Below, piece by piece: positions 213-34,698 of a stretch of DNA of 35,054 nucleotides. The DNA comes from a virus: positions 1 through 35,054 of the IMG/VR virus record IMGVR_UViG_3300045921_000956. One strand, 5' to 3'. Both the position numbers and the translations under genes were made by a program. The notes below the pieces were generated by a model. That model made no database searches. It had not been told where the DNA came from and saw only the letters and a list, made by a program, of their open reading frames with translations. The first letter of the stretch is position 1. Each line of letters begins with the position of its first letter.

Positions 213-1028
213 TTACCGTCCGCTCAGGGGCTTCATCCGGTAGTTGTCGATTAAAAGCTCGGTCACCAGCTTGTCCCTTTTGGCTGTGCCCAGGCTATAG
301 TGGGTTGTCACGGACCTGATGCGGAAGCCGGAGAACAGCTTGCGGATCTCCGGGGTGTCGTTGATGGACATGATGAACTTGCCCTTCAGCTTGCGTAAAC
401 AGGCCGCCAGCGTTGCGAAATCGCTCCGCTGGAACAGACCCTTGCCGTAGTGGTTCTCGCAGCCGTAGTACGGCGGGTCGATGTAGAAGAAGGTGCCCGC
501 CCGGTCGTACCGATCGATCAATGTCGCGAATGGCATGTTCTCGACGTAAACCCGAGCCAGCCGGAGATGCGCTGCGGACAGGTCTTCCTCGATCCGCAGC
601 AGGTTCAGCTTTGGCGGTCGATCGGCCGAAATGTCCATCATCGGCGACCATAGCTGGGAACGGAATCGGGTGCGGATCAGGTAGTAGAACCGCGCCGCCC
701 GCTGGATGTCGGTCAGTGTGGTCGGGTCCACGCGCTTCAGGCGCTCGAACTCTTCCCTCGAGACCAGCACCCACTTGAAGTAGCGGATAAACTCCTCCAG
801 GTGATGCTGGATTACGCGGTATAGCGCGACGAGGTCGAGGTTGATGTCATTGATCACCTCGATCTGGGATTCCGTCTTTTTAAAGAGCAACCACGCCGCG
901 CCCGCGAATACCTCCACGTAGCACTTGTGGCTGGGAATGAGCGGGATGATTTTCCCCGCCAGCAGCGACTTGCCGCCCACCCATGAAATGATGCTTTTTC
1001 CGTCTGTCGCTGTCGTTACTTTTCGCAT
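213..1028 (-). CDS. D12-class DNA adenine N6-methyltransferase (Dam-like)
   Basis: The 271-residue product has the features of the D12 adenine methyltransferase family: W16-V-G-G-K near the N terminus, the AdoMet-binding VEVFAGAA segment (residues 38-45) and the catalytic DPPY at 184-187. It should transfer a methyl group from AdoMet to the N6 of adenine in a short DNA site; GATC is the common Dam target but the site cannot be read from sequence. It is the last gene before the right end, where Mu carries the DNA-modification gene mom, so protection of phage DNA from restriction is the likely role. An AAGAGG ribosome site lies about 7 nt before the ATG. The gene sits behind a ~160-nt leader with strong hairpins, suggesting post-transcriptional control. 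Confidence 0.9.
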   Translation of the reverse strand: MRKVTTATDGKSIISWVGGKSLLAGKIIPLIPSHKCYVEVFAGAAWLLFKKTESQIEVINDINLDLVALYRVIQHHLEEFIRYFKWVLVSREEFERLKRVDPTTLTDIQRAARFYYLIRTRFRSQLWSPMMDISADRPPKLNLLRIEEDLSAAHLRLARVYVENMPFATLIDRYDRAGTFFYIDPPYYGCENHYGKGLFQRSDFATLAACLRKLKGKFIMSINDTPEIRKLFSGFRIRSVTTHYSLGTAKRDKLVTELLIDNYRMKPLSGR

Positions 1029-1056
1029 TGCGAGCCTCTTGATTTTGGTCTTCGTG

Positions 1057-1094
1057 CTAGGCTCTCTCTGCCGCGTACGTGGCAGGGGGCCTAG
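1057..1094 (-). promoter_or_regulatory. Hairpin in the methyltransferase leader (proximal)
   Basis: CTAGGC (1057-1062) pairs with GCCTAG (1089-1094), and inside it CTGCC (1068-1072) pairs with GGCAG (1081-1085) around an 8-nt loop containing CGTACG. It lies about 30 nt before the methyltransferase start codon in the mRNA. Such a stem could govern translation or RNA stability, but that is inference. Confidence 0.5.
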
Positions 1095-1125
1095 TCCTGA
1101 CTCGCTGGTCTGGTCAGCGGGTTAA

Positions 1126-1164
1126 GGGGCCGGCGCGATGTTCGCGCATCGCGTCGGTCGCCCC
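1126..1164. promoter_or_regulatory. Long GC-rich hairpin in the methyltransferase leader (distal)
   Basis: GGGGC-CGGCGCGATG (1126-1140) pairs with CATCGCGTCG (1147-1156) and GCCCC (1160-1164), with a 3-nt bulge and a 6-nt loop. On the plus strand it is followed by ctcttttt, so it could be an antisense-direction terminator. On the minus strand it sits just after the upstream gene's stop and could act as a partial terminator or regulatory stem separating the methyltransferase from the tail operon. Direction of action is not decided by the sequence. Confidence 0.5.
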
Positions 1165-1191
1165 CTCTTTTTCAGTGGTTGCCGGTCTCCA

Positions 1192-1548
1192 TCAGCAGTG
1201 ACTCCCTTTCGGGTCGAACGGGTTGAGCAGGTTGCCGCAGATGAACGTCGCCACAATCCGCCGGCGTGACTCGGCCGGCAGATCCGCACGGATTCGCTTC
1301 AGCGTCCCCGTCAGCAACACATCGCGCGGCCGCCACCAGGCAAGCAGGCAAAAGTGCAGGTTGAGCAGGGCGTCGCAGACCAGGCCGATGGGCAGCACGA
1401 TCCAGTAGGCGATGAACCGGGCAAAGCCGGTCAGCTTGTCGCGGTTGCCGGCAAGGGTCATCACCGCCAGATACAGCACCCAGGTGGCGATGATGAAGGC
1501 GATGTCGTAGCCGATCCATTTCAGGACGGTCAGCCCGGCGGCAGTCAC
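1192..1548 (-). CDS. Small membrane protein of unknown function
   Basis: The 118-residue product starts at GTG, overlapping the previous stop as GTGA. Two hydrophobic stretches (about residues 9-34 and 44-72) suggest membrane insertion, followed by a basic region and a C-terminal end NPFDPKGSHC. Similar small proteins with an FDP..HC tail occur near tail genes in other phages, as I recall, but their job is not established. Position between the fibre genes and the methyltransferase gives no firm function. A second long frame at the same place is a shadow. Confidence 0.7.
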   Translation of the reverse strand: MTAAGLTVLKWIGYDIAFIIATWVLYLAVMTLAGNRDKLTGFARFIAYWIVLPIGLVCDALLNLHFCLLAWWRPRDVLLTGTLKRIRADLPAESRRRIVATFICGNLLNPFDPKGSHC

Positions 1549-1950: not shown

Positions 1951-3045
1951 TTAAGTTTTAATAATCTTCAACACCACCGCAGACGGTTGCAGGTTGTTGT
2001 GTGCGCCGCCACCGCCTTGCGATGAAATAGTGTGCGTGTGGTCTGAAGAAACTGCTGCATTATCTGCGCTGGGGCCAATGTCGTTTATATCTTGCGCAGA
2101 TGTGACGTTTATAAACATTGCTTGACTCGAACCGCCAGTAATACCGCCGTGATTATGAGAGGGCATCTCTCCTACCGAGAGCGTATGCGTCTCAGAACCT
2201 CCGGTATTTCCAACAGAATTACCTAGCGTTCCTGTTCCTGTTCCGCCAGAACCAACAGCAACGCGGCGGCGAAAATCTGGCAATGTGAACGTAGTCGAAC
2301 CATCGCCGGCACCCCAAGTCGTTCCGATAGCGGCGAAGAGCGCTGCATAAGTCGTTCGGCTTACGTTTGCTCCATTGCATTGCAAATAACCACTCGGGAC
2401 GGCGGTGCCGGCAAAATCCACTATCGTTCCAGGTTGAACAAACTGTGCACCATCAATCCCAGATAAATCTGTCAACGCTGCGACGACGTTAATGCCATCG
2501 CATAAGAGTATTGCACGCTTGCCTTGCGCGACCACGATGCCGCTGCCGGCGGCGGTCTTCACTGTGACCGTAAACGCGCCACTGGTGTTGTTATAAACTT
2601 CCCACTGCCACTCGGTTTCATCCACGATGACATTAATATTGCCGGTCAGCACCCCGGTCAGGATCAGCTGATGGCAGCGCTGCTCCAGCGCGGTCAGCGT
2701 GACGTTCGAGGCGCCGGCGACCGACTTGCTGACCTGTCGCGGCAGCGACAGCCATGCCGGAAAGCCGCAGCGGATTTGGACGTTGGCGTTATTCCAGTTC
2801 ACTGCGGCGCCGCCGTTGCTGCTGGCCACGATATGCGTGCGCTGTGCGCGGTTCGGGCCTGACACGTAGGTGTAAAGCCCGGCCTCCCAATTGATGCCGT
2901 CCGTGACGTATCCGGGAAAATAGTTGTTCGCGCCGATGACCGACAATGGCTGAAACCCGGTCGATGCGCCGGTCACCGTATATTCGCCGGTTCCAGTGAT
3001 GTTCGCGTTGTCGAGGACGCGCTCTTTTGCGATCATTTTTGCCAT
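1951..3045 (-). CDS. Tail fibre protein with phage tail collar domain
   Basis: The 364-residue product has an N-terminal adaptor-like domain (about 1-95), a middle beta-rich region, and a phage tail collar domain at about 205-262 (PGTIVDF...PSGYLQCNG...FTLPDFRRR). The C terminus is Gly/Ser/His-rich with SHNHGG and SDHTHT, typical of fibre tips. It should form part of the distal fibre used for host attachment. Its first ~95 residues resemble the N terminus of the protein at 22637-23779. The 3' half is AT-richer than surrounding genes, consistent with exchange of the receptor-binding part. Confidence 0.88.
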   Translation of the reverse strand: MAKMIAKERVLDNANITGTGEYTVTGASTGFQPLSVIGANNYFPGYVTDGINWEAGLYTYVSGPNRAQRTHIVASSNGGAAVNWNNANVQIRCGFPAWLSLPRQVSKSVAGASNVTLTALEQRCHQLILTGVLTGNINVIVDETEWQWEVYNNTSGAFTVTVKTAAGSGIVVAQGKRAILLCDGINVVAALTDLSGIDGAQFVQPGTIVDFAGTAVPSGYLQCNGANVSRTTYAALFAAIGTTWGAGDGSTTFTLPDFRRRVAVGSGGTGTGTLGNSVGNTGGSETHTLSVGEMPSHNHGGITGGSSQAMFINVTSAQDINDIGPSADNAAVSSDHTHTISSQGGGGAHNNLQPSAVVLKIIKT

Positions 3046-31592: not shown

Positions 31593-34031
31593 TTAAGCCT
31601 GTCTCAAATCGGGAAAATCCTCGGCCAGCTTTTCCATCGCCGACCATTCATCGCTGCCGTGATACGCGCGGTGCCACTGCGCGTCCTCTTCGCTGAGCGC
31701 TTCGCCGGCATCGATGCGCGCCTGCAGGGCGTTCCAGCGCTTGTAGTTGAACTCCGGGTTGTCGATCGCGGTGACGCGCTGTTGCGCAGCAGGCGCGGCC
31801 AGCTCGCGGTCGAGTTCGGCCATCGCGGCGCGTTCCTCGTCGTCGAGTTCGCGTGAGTGCGGTGCGGGACGTGCCAGTGGATCGCGGAACTCGCCGCGGA
31901 CGACCTTGCCGGACGCAGCCGCCGGCGCCGGGATCGCGACCGGACCTGACGTGGCGTAGGCTTTGGCGGCGTCGAGAACGGTCATGCGGATCTCGGCCTT
32001 GGCCAGTGTTTTGCTGGCGCGCAGGAAGGTCTGGCGGGCGCGGCTGTGTTCGCGGCCGGCGTTGGCGTCGTTGAAGCCCGCGGCCTGCACGCATTCGGCG
32101 AAGCAGATGTAGCGGCCGTCGATGGTGTAGACGTGGACGCCCTCGTGCAGGCGCGCTGGGTCGAAGCGCGCGACCACCTGGCGGCCGGCGTGTTCGGTCA
32201 TCTCCGGCGACCAATAGCGGTTGGCGACGCGCTCGCCGACCACGCGGCCGGCGTCGAGGGTGACCTCGCCGTTCTTGCTGCTGGCGCGCACCGGCTCGGT
32301 GGCGAGCAGCCACAGGCGGCGCTGCGCTTCGGTGGGCCGACGGATCACGGCTTGCGACGCAGCGAAGGACTCGTCGAACACGGCGTCGAAGGAACGGCCC
32401 TGGTGCATGGCGCCGCGGCGGCCGGTGCGGGCGTTGAAAGCTGCGATTTCGCGTGCAATGACCTGCTCGAGTACGGCGAGATCGATGCACTTCGTCTTGC
32501 CGTCATACTCGGGTTTATTGATCGGACTGGCGCCAGTCCAGCAGCCGGCGAGTTCTGGCGATTTGTCGACGTATTCGCCGATGCCGCCGGTGCCGAACAC
32601 GCGCTCGACCGGCTTGGCCTGGCCGTGTCCCGGCGTCGCCCAGGACACGCGCACGCTCATCAGCGCGAAGACGCCGAGCGGCTCATCCTCGCGGACCTTG
32701 AAGCGGAATCGGTGCTTGACCCCGCCGGACATGGTCTTGTTGGCCGCGGCTAGCGTGTTGTCCAGCGTGACCTGCTCGGGAATGCCGTATTTTTCGACAA
32801 CGTCGCCAAAGGACAGGCGGATGACGTCAGTGTGTTCGGTCTTGTCGGTGCGCCAGCCGATGATCTTGCTGCTGTATACGTCCTGCCACACCCAGGTCTT
32901 GGCGCGCAAGACTTCGCCATCGGGAAACCTGACCCACACGTTGTGCTTGTAGCCGTCGCCGTTGATGATCTCGAGGGCGCGCAGCGCGGATTTCAGCCGC
33001 TGTTGCGCGGGATAGAGCTGCTTGGCGGCGGTCGGTCCTTTACGGCTCAGCTCCTTGATGACGCGAGGCAGCTTCTCGAGGCGGCGCTGCAGGGTGCGCG
33101 TGGACGGCAGAATCCAGCCGCGTTCGGCGGCGATCTTCTGCAGGCGGAATATGCAGGCCGCGGCGGTCGGCTGCTCGCGACGCAGGTAGTCGGCCTTGAG
33201 CAGTTCCCAGGCTTCTGCGTCCATCTCGGCGCGCGCGGTGCGGCCGGCGTAACCGTCGGCGAGAAAATACAGCCAAGCATGCGACGGCACGTTTTTGATG
33301 TCCTTGCGCCACCGCCACAAGGTCGCAGCGGGCACCCCGAGGCGCAACTCAATCGCCTCCGCTGCCACGCCGGGTGTTGTGCCCGCATCGATGGCTTCGT
33401 GGTAGGCGCACACTACCGCGTGCTTGCGTTCGGCGCGGCGCTTGGATTTCGCGGGCCGCGACTCATACCACGCGGCGCGAGCCTCGATGTCAGAGTCGCT
33501 TAGCTGCCTTCGAGGAGCATCCCGAGATTCGGTGATATCACATCGATCATGCCCGCCATGAACCACCGCGCCGTCGTCCTGCCCAGCGCTGTGGGCTGCA
33601 GCTCCCCGTCCTCCATCTCGATGAATCCCAGTTCCAGTAACGTGCTCTCGCCCGCGTCGCGGCCGAATGTCGATCCGATTCCCAGGTCGTTGTAGCTGCC
33701 CAGCGTGAGCGCCACCAGAATCATGGCTTGCCGATGCGTCAGTTGAGTCTCGACATCTATCATCCGATAGATTTCCGCTTCTTTCGTCTCGTTTATTTTC
33801 ATGCTGTTCTCCTTGAGTGAGAATAGCCACTTGAAGCTCTGGCGGCAGTGATGCAAACAGGTATTCGCGGCGGATGCCGCGGCGGCCGCCCTGGCACGGC
33901 ACATCGCGCGCTACCGACTTTTCACGGTCTAGCCTCACTCGCATGCGATATTCGCTGGTCGGAAACCCGGGCACCTTGAGGGCCGCGAGTTCGGAAGCGG
34001 AGTAAGAATCTTTTATTGTTGTTTTTTTCAT
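31593..34031 (-). CDS. MuA-type DDE transposase with internal ~100-residue insert
   Basis: The 812-residue product has an N-terminal MuA-type DNA-binding domain (about 7-72: SASELAALKVPGFPTSE; GRRGIRREYLFASLPPEL), an interposed low-order region (about 77-177), then the Mu transposase helical domains and the catalytic core. The DDE residues are all present: Asp359 in INGDGYKHN, Asp424 in TLDNTLAAANK and Glu476 in KPVERVFG. The C-terminal domain follows. It should cut prophage ends and join them to target DNA. Mu's own protein is 663 residues; the extra length is largely the insert, which coincides with a separate gene in another frame. AGGAAGG precedes the ATG, which overlaps the upstream stop. 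Confidence 0.93.
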   Translation of the reverse strand: MKKTTIKDSYSASELAALKVPGFPTSEYRMRVRLDREKSVARDVPCQGGRRGIRREYLFASLPPELQVAILTQGEQHENKRDERSGNLSDDRCRDSTDASASHDSGGAHAGQLQRPGNRIDIRPRRGREHVTGTGIHRDGGRGAAAHSAGQDDGAVVHGGHDRCDITESRDAPRRQLSDSDIEARAAWYESRPAKSKRRAERKHAVVCAYHEAIDAGTTPGVAAEAIELRLGVPAATLWRWRKDIKNVPSHAWLYFLADGYAGRTARAEMDAEAWELLKADYLRREQPTAAACIFRLQKIAAERGWILPSTRTLQRRLEKLPRVIKELSRKGPTAAKQLYPAQQRLKSALRALEIINGDGYKHNVWVRFPDGEVLRAKTWVWQDVYSSKIIGWRTDKTEHTDVIRLSFGDVVEKYGIPEQVTLDNTLAAANKTMSGGVKHRFRFKVREDEPLGVFALMSVRVSWATPGHGQAKPVERVFGTGGIGEYVDKSPELAGCWTGASPINKPEYDGKTKCIDLAVLEQVIAREIAAFNARTGRRGAMHQGRSFDAVFDESFAASQAVIRRPTEAQRRLWLLATEPVRASSKNGEVTLDAGRVVGERVANRYWSPEMTEHAGRQVVARFDPARLHEGVHVYTIDGRYICFAECVQAAGFNDANAGREHSRARQTFLRASKTLAKAEIRMTVLDAAKAYATSGPVAIPAPAAASGKVVRGEFRDPLARPAPHSRELDDEERAAMAELDRELAAPAAQQRVTAIDNPEFNYKRWNALQARIDAGEALSEEDAQWHRAYHGSDEWSAMEKLAEDFPDLRQA
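33500..33802 (-). CDS. Winged-helix-like small protein nested inside the transposase gene
   Basis: A second reading frame on the same strand starts at the ATG ending at 33802 with a perfect AAGGAG 6 nt upstream and encodes 100 residues. The sequence reads as a real folded protein: MKINETKEAEIYRMIDVE, LTHRQAMILVALTLGSY (helix), TLLELGFIEMEDGELQPTALGRTTARWF, a helix plus wing layout typical of winged helices. In contrast the transposase frame over the same bases is Arg/Asp/Gly/His-rich and disordered-looking. The 5' part is AT-richer than the flanks. It may be an early regulator inserted into the transposase linker. Expression is inferred from the start signal. Confidence 0.7.
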   Translation of the reverse strand: MKINETKEAEIYRMIDVETQLTHRQAMILVALTLGSYNDLGIGSTFGRDAGESTLLELGFIEMEDGELQPTALGRTTARWFMAGMIDVISPNLGMLLEGS

Positions 34032-34474
34032 GCCTTCCTCACTTGTTTCATGCGCAGCCGCAGCGCCTTCTCGCGCTCGTTAAGTTCGGTTTTCGCCTGC
34101 TGGATTTTCCCCATCTCGGCGAGCAGCGCGTCCTCGCCCACCAGCACCCTGCAACCGCGTTTGCGTCCGAGCAGTTCCTGCAGGCAGACGGTGTCGCACG
34201 CAGCCTCGAAGGCCGCGGCATACTCGAACGGAAAGCGCCAGGGCGCCTTGCTCTCCGCAGTCCAGGCATCGAGCATCGACTTGCTGATGTCCTGCCCGGT
34301 GAGTTCGCTCATGCGCGCGGCGACTTCGTGCCGCGAGAGCGGGGTTTTTTTTAGTGCGTCGGAGAGCGCATAGCGCAGCTCGGTCGCGTAGTCCAGGCTG
34401 CCGCCGGTGAGCTCCGGTGACGCCGGCACATCGAACATGTCGATAGTGCGGGTGTCGGCGGCGCGGCGGGTCAT
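34028..34474 (-). CDS. Early protein upstream of the transposase
   Basis: The 148-residue product opens MTRRAADTRTIDMFDVP and contains LRYALSDALKKTPLSRHEVAARMSEL and SMLDAWTAESKAPWRFPFEYAAAFEAAC, a helix-turn-helix-like middle, with a C-terminal coiled coil (AKTELNEREKALRLRMK). Proteins of this layout commonly precede transposase genes in Mu-like phages; their function is not established. Its start and stop overlap neighbours by 4 nt. Confidence 0.8.
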   Translation of the reverse strand: MTRRAADTRTIDMFDVPASPELTGGSLDYATELRYALSDALKKTPLSRHEVAARMSELTGQDISKSMLDAWTAESKAPWRFPFEYAAAFEAACDTVCLQELLGRKRGCRVLVGEDALLAEMGKIQQAKTELNEREKALRLRMKQVRKA

Positions 34475-34698
34475 TGTGTCGGCTCCTGCAGGGAAAACCG
34501 TTTTGCCGGGTCGGCCTTGACGGCTGCTTTCAGCTTCGCCCCCACGCGCTGGAGTGCGCTCTTGCTGATGCGATGCCCGCGGCGGCGCAGATCGTCCTGC
34601 AGCTCGATGTAGCCCGAGAACCCATTGGCCATCAATTTGGCCTCAACTTCCAGCTGCACCGCGAGCGGGAGGGCGTAGAAGCGGTTGACGCGCGGCAT
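34471..34698 (-). CDS. Small HTH protein resembling the small-terminase N-terminal domain
   Basis: The 75-residue product (MPRVNRFYALPLAVQLEVEA...) contains FSGYIELQDDLRRRGHRISKSALQRVG, which parallels FAGYTALESELRERGYSIGKSSIQRYG in the DUF3486 protein at 19779-20339. It is thus a stand-alone copy of that DNA-binding module in the early operon. It starts 2 bases after the Ner-like stop. A role in early DNA recognition is possible. Confidence 0.78.
   Translation of the reverse strand: MPRVNRFYALPLAVQLEVEAKLMANGFSGYIELQDDLRRRGHRISKSALQRVGAKLKAAVKADPAKRFSLQEPTQ

Follow-up and report, generated by a model that had tools for sequence, protein, structure and literature searches.

A putative small gene nested out of frame in an inter-domain linker of the transposase gene of a Mu-like phage

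The MuA-type transposase gene of a Mu-like phage, whose complete virus record of 35,054 bases we refer to as the window, contains a second complete open reading frame (ORF) that is in all probability a genuine gene, lodged out of frame in a permissive inter-domain linker, with the transposase frame reading through it. The observation itself – a 100-residue ORF with an ATG start, lying wholly within the 812-codon transposase ORF and on the same strand – is real and goes beyond chance, because a related Mu-like virus from IMG/VR (L001) shares the ORF at 55% protein identity and because none of 20,000 codon resamplings reached the identity observed.

The early region of the window lies at its right-hand end on the minus strand. 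The Mu DDE core, domain Iγ and the C-terminal domains of the transposase are all present, as judged by Pfam matches above curated cut-offs, and the gene that follows encodes an AAA protein with relatives among phage DNA-transposition proteins (Table 1). In Mu, domain Iα binds the enhancer and Iβ-Iγ bind the ends. The nested ORF is shifted by +1 with respect to the transposase frame, beginning at the second base of transposase codon 77 and finishing with a stop codon that ends within codon 178, so that it overlaps transposase residues 77–178. An AAGGAG motif lies 6 nt 5′ of the nested ATG, with a Shine-Dalgarno (SD)/anti-SD duplex energy of –8.5 kcal/mol (a value of –6.4 kcal/mol or lower is reached at no more than the top 5% of positions in the gene), and the L001 ORF starts with AGGAG at the identical 6-nt spacing. 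Both the ORF coordinates and the duplex energy therefore confirm what had been proposed in an earlier sequence-only reading, namely a 100-residue ORF preceded by AAGGAG within an open transposase frame. The AT-richer 5′ part described in that reading is likewise real, the GC content being 0.45–0.49 at 33700–33850 versus approximately 0.62–0.68 in the flanks. The nested frame is open 5′ of its ATG too, with 136 residues open in the window and 110 in L001.

Table 1. Features of the transposase locus, in window coordinates.
Feature	Coordinates	Strand	Evidence
MuA-type transposase gene, 812 codons, open throughout	31593..34031	–	Pfam DDE_2, HTH_Tnp_Mu_2, Mu-transpos_C; phrog_310
Transposase residues 1–76, domain Iα	33804..34031	–	Confident model over most of 10–75; dN/dS 0.15 versus L001
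Transposase residues 77–178, extended linker, predicted disordered, encoded by the nested-gene DNA	33498..33803	–	pLDDT; dNN/dNS 1.03; absent from 87 homologues
Transposase segment 3′ of the linker	32997..33497	–	Confident model; Pfam Iγ at residues 244–345
Putative nested gene, 100-residue orphan protein	33500..33802	–	ORF; L001 relative; purifying selection; gene-like codon usage
Putative nested-gene ribosome-binding site AAGGAG	33809..33814	–	Sequence; SD energy; AGGAG in L001
In-frame GTG (transposase residue 156), candidate restart if the transposase is split	33564..33566	–	ATG at the aligned place in L001

The transposase of L001 is 73% identical to that of the window over its full length, and its frame is likewise open across a nested ORF (2690–2989). 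The two nested proteins align over 98 residues with no gaps, the identity being strongest in QLTHRQA, GSYN, DAGESTL, DGEL.PTA.GR and DVISP. Nucleotide identity in the overlap is 65%, and as two separate records this far apart carry the arrangement, an assembly artefact is ruled out. Beyond L001, no relative of the nested protein, stand-alone or nested, turned up when we queried viral contigs in five differently constructed ways and searched genome contigs, the records of phages and plasmids, and three samplings of proteobacterial genomes (399, 369 and 398), the contig scans depending on short peptide patterns that divergent relatives could escape. Two weak Burkholderiales matches (L028 and L029) were rejected as due to chance: they have internal stop codons and lack the transposase context.

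Divergence between the window and L001 at nested-frame codon positions 1, 2 and 3 is 31, 24 and 51%, respectively, which is a coding pattern. In the overlap, dN/dS is 0.38 for the nested frame and 1.32 for the transposase frame (0.15 and 0.20 in the flanking transposase parts), and an overlap-aware count yields a nested dNN/dSN of 0.51 (bootstrap 0.33–0.78; P(≥1) 0.001) and a transposase dNN/dNS of 1.03 (0.66–1.70), all of these rates coming from one pairwise comparison of the sole two carriers found. When the transposase peptides alone were held fixed in codon resampling, 40.7 ± 2.7 nested identities were expected versus the 53 observed (0/20,000); when the nested proteins alone were constrained, the 40 identities seen in the transposase frame were not significantly above the null of 35.4 ± 2.7 (P 0.07). 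The overlap-aware ratios and the two resamplings thus agree that the nested protein is conserved while the linker amino acids are not. As far as two sequences can tell, purifying selection acts on the nested frame in the overlap, where the transposase frame evolves neutrally. The sequence-only reading had suggested computing dN/dS separately in both frames, and this result is the opposite of the outcome it had named as counting against a nested gene, that is, conserved transposase-frame residues over an unconserved second frame.

The nested ORF occupies a site at which the transposase is unusually long. Measured between one fixed pair of alignment columns in all homologues, the interval between Iα and Iβ is 115 residues in the window and 118 in L001, and ranges from 19 to 66 residues (median 29) in 87 other MuA homologues. 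The excess over the median, approximately 85–90 residues, roughly matches the nested gene in length and is filled by it; the insert that had been suspected between the N-terminal DNA-binding domain and the rest of the protein is therefore found by homologue alignment exactly there. Residues 77–177 had also been read as non-globular, and AlphaFold, given the first 357 residues and an alignment of 55 sequences, predicts disorder in this stretch with confident domains on either side: pLDDT exceeds 90 for most of Iα and Iβ-Iγ and is under 50 at almost every residue from 90 to 165. In phage Mu, the Iα-Iβ linker (aa 65–89) is highly tolerant of insertions, many of which raise activity, and both the length and the composition of this linker differ among homologues (PMC3362531). 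We checked the homologues L004 (3084–3926; linker of 66) and L041 (2605–3468; linker of 58) and found no nested ORF with a start and an SD in either. The long upstream open frames of L021, L018 and L032 are not linker inserts.

In L002 and in a locus of a Burkholderiales metagenome-assembled genome (L020), the rest of the transposase is approximately 71–73% identical to that of the window, the Iα-Iβ part is different and the linker is short. The DNA switches abruptly from dissimilar to 78–85% similar near the start of Iγ (approximately 33250, residue ~260, in the window; 3217 in L001; 3135 in L002; 2124 in L020). Given this abrupt onset of similarity and the divergent Iα-Iβ part of L002 and L020, the Iα-nested-Iβ segment looks like one exchangeable module.

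Several further observations concern the same end of the locus. The Iα-Iβ DNA-binding part appears to be swapped blockwise among related Mu-like phages. Within domain Iα of the window the third-position GC content is 0.58, versus 0.81 in the remaining transposase, and synonymous divergence from L001 is near-saturated (dS 2.4 versus 0.7), so that this end of the gene appears to have had a different history. The small ORFs 5′ of the transposase gene differ between the two phages: the window has a 75-aa ORF matching the first third of Mu Gp27 (34471–34698, minus strand) and L001 has a 110-aa ORF that overlaps the transposase start (2139–2471, plus strand). Upstream in L001 there is also a divergent 158-aa ORF (733–1209, minus strand), the N-terminus of which resembles transposase domain Iα (28% identity); it is possibly the Mu c-type repressor of that phage.

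Codon usage is an established criterion for recognising the older of two overlapping frames (PMC8227390). The nested frame of the overlap scores +0.25 and +0.28, with phage genes at 0.42 ± 0.23; the transposase frame scores –0.84 and –0.71, with off-frame controls at –0.68 ± 0.16. Together with the lengthened linker, this suggests that a ready-made gene was inserted and was then read through by the transposase, the relative age being judged from 100 codons. The earlier wording that the small gene was 'inserted into, or arose in' the linker is thus supported, with codon usage favouring insertion over overprinting. We infer that the insertion preceded the read-through frame, so that the inner gene would have come first and the outer linker frame second, which is the reverse of the usual order in overprinting. 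In the scenario that we propose, a stand-alone gene of approximately 300 bp, equipped with its own ribosome-binding site, would have entered the linker between Iα and Iβ-Iγ, and the transposase would now read the insert as a flexible, neutrally evolving linker of approximately 100 residues. The same early mRNA would then give rise to the full-length transposase and, via internal initiation at the AAGGAG-ATG, to the 100-residue protein, both products presumably being made.

How much the open transposase frame contributes depends on how readily such frames arise. With the nested proteins alone fixed and genome codon usage applied, both transposase frames were open in 0.3% of resamplings, and permutation of each gene's own codons gave single open-frame probabilities of 0.037 and 0.137; the range that we quote for both being open by chance, p ~0.003–0.02, allows for shared ancestry and is partly a matter of judgement. 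Since approximately 26% of 300-nt blocks from true genes of the window phage are open in the corresponding off-frame, one open frame is unremarkable by itself, and we regard openness as moderate evidence. The case for a kept frame is strengthened by the indels that distinguish the window from L001 around the insert, which preserve the transposase frame on both sides, and by the absence of any stop codon 3′ of Iα in the transposase frame of either genome. Domains Iα and Iβ lie in one ORF and are both modelled confidently by AlphaFold, and linker length varies in the MuA family. One continuous transposase is most likely.

A split transposase, or a second isoform, is possible, and the option of a protein made in two pieces had been raised in the sequence-only reading. 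The nested gene would then still be real, and the open frame would partly reflect chance in GC-rich DNA: an Iα piece with a run-on tail would be made alongside a piece of approximately 656 residues, running from Iβ to the C-terminus and starting at GTG156 (ATG158 in L001). The weak GTG does exist, and both phages have a start-like in-frame codon at the corresponding alignment position, with SD energies that are moderate (–6.4 and –5.0), as such a restart would call for; the neutral evolution of the transposase frame across the stretch is also compatible with it, and MuA without Iα is active in some assays (PMC3362531). However, the TG of the GTG is part of a conserved Trp codon (TGG) of the nested frame, which imposes it, and the SD energies are no better than the 5–10% background points. 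Furthermore, the Iα piece would have to have gone without a stop in both genomes by chance, at the probability given above, the indels have kept the frame, and Iα and Iβ are fused in other homologues. Taken together, we consider the split unlikely.

Considerably less probable still is a +1 slip near the end of Iα that would produce an Iα-nested fusion, a repressor-like competitor of the transposase. The Mu repressor and transposase domain Iα are related domains, which lends the idea some appeal, as does the fact that in both phages the open stretch of the nested frame begins some codons 5′ of the ATG; but the good SD and ATG in both make a slip unnecessary, and in L001 only approximately 11 upstream codons are open, with no common slippery motif seen there. 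Finally, that the nested ORF is not a gene at all, the linker having simply grown with the other frame open by chance, is barely credible: off-frame ORFs are common in the GC-rich window genome, but the nested dN/dS, the overlap-aware ratio, the excess identity and the codon usage all contradict it, and a chance ORF is rejected through the comparison of the window with L001.

We return to the reading that we prefer, a genuine nested gene within a continuous transposase gene, and to what its product may be. Searches of Pfam, PHROGs, NCBIfam, PADLOC and PDB sequences revealed no significant relative of the nested protein, NCBIfam returning two chance-level matches, for the L001 copy only. The low-confidence structural model of the protein (mean pLDDT 64.6) consists of a long helix, a helix, a beta hairpin and a helix (H-H-E-E-H), an order that weakly supports the winged-helix-like character ascribed to the protein from its sequence; neither a profile match nor a significant fold match bears this out, the winged-helix regulators MarR, CggR and LmrR being listed in fold searches with this model, none of them significantly. 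Our guess, for which we would not claim the better part of the probability, is that we are dealing with a small DNA-binding protein of the winged-helix type, which may tune early transcription or transposition in step with the transposase level; nearly as likely, the gene is unrelated cargo occupying a permissive site. The full combination – a captured complete regulatory gene, with one mRNA yielding the transposase and a small DNA-binding protein that controls the transposase or the enhancer, and with the inner gene first and the outer frame second – is offered more tentatively, and we hold it to be rather doubtful.

Our searches of the open-access literature did not turn up any MuA-type transposase gene described as containing a nested gene. 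The arrangement would be a natural case of a gene entering another gene and surviving, by inserting into a disordered linker in a register that interrupts neither frame. Long, variable inter-domain linkers of phage enzymes are therefore worth searching for hidden genes that standard annotation drops. Should the nested protein turn out to act on transposition, a Mu-family transposase would have a built-in regulator for which we have found no described counterpart.

The closest parallels differ in several respects. Rz1 of phage lambda lies within Rz and is likewise an intact short gene, with a start of its own, read in the +1 frame of a longer phage gene, and in this pair the mutation-sensitive parts of one protein sit over a replaceable linker of the other (PMC5295617); however, Rz and Rz1 act jointly in lysis, whereas here an orphan protein is encoded within a transposase gene, and of the two frames it is the inner that looks older. 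In Bacillus subtilis, comS within srfAB similarly encodes a small regulatory protein in a distinct frame of the gene of a large modular enzyme (PMC12915044), although the function of ComS is established, the two proteins are unrelated in sequence and a regulatory role of the nested protein is a guess. A further parallel is the S gene over the polymerase of Hepatitis B virus, for which a review author has hypothesised that S was once a short gene separating the terminal-protein part from the RT/RNase part, the present overlap having arisen later (PMC8227390), yet the virus, the genes and the expression strategy are all unrelated. With the MuA family of phage Mu and its relatives, the window transposase shares Iα, Iβ, Iγ, the DDE core, the C-terminal domains and the AAA gene that follows; what sets it apart is a linker that extends approximately 85–90 residues beyond the median of the 87 homologues and, in all probability, carries a second gene.
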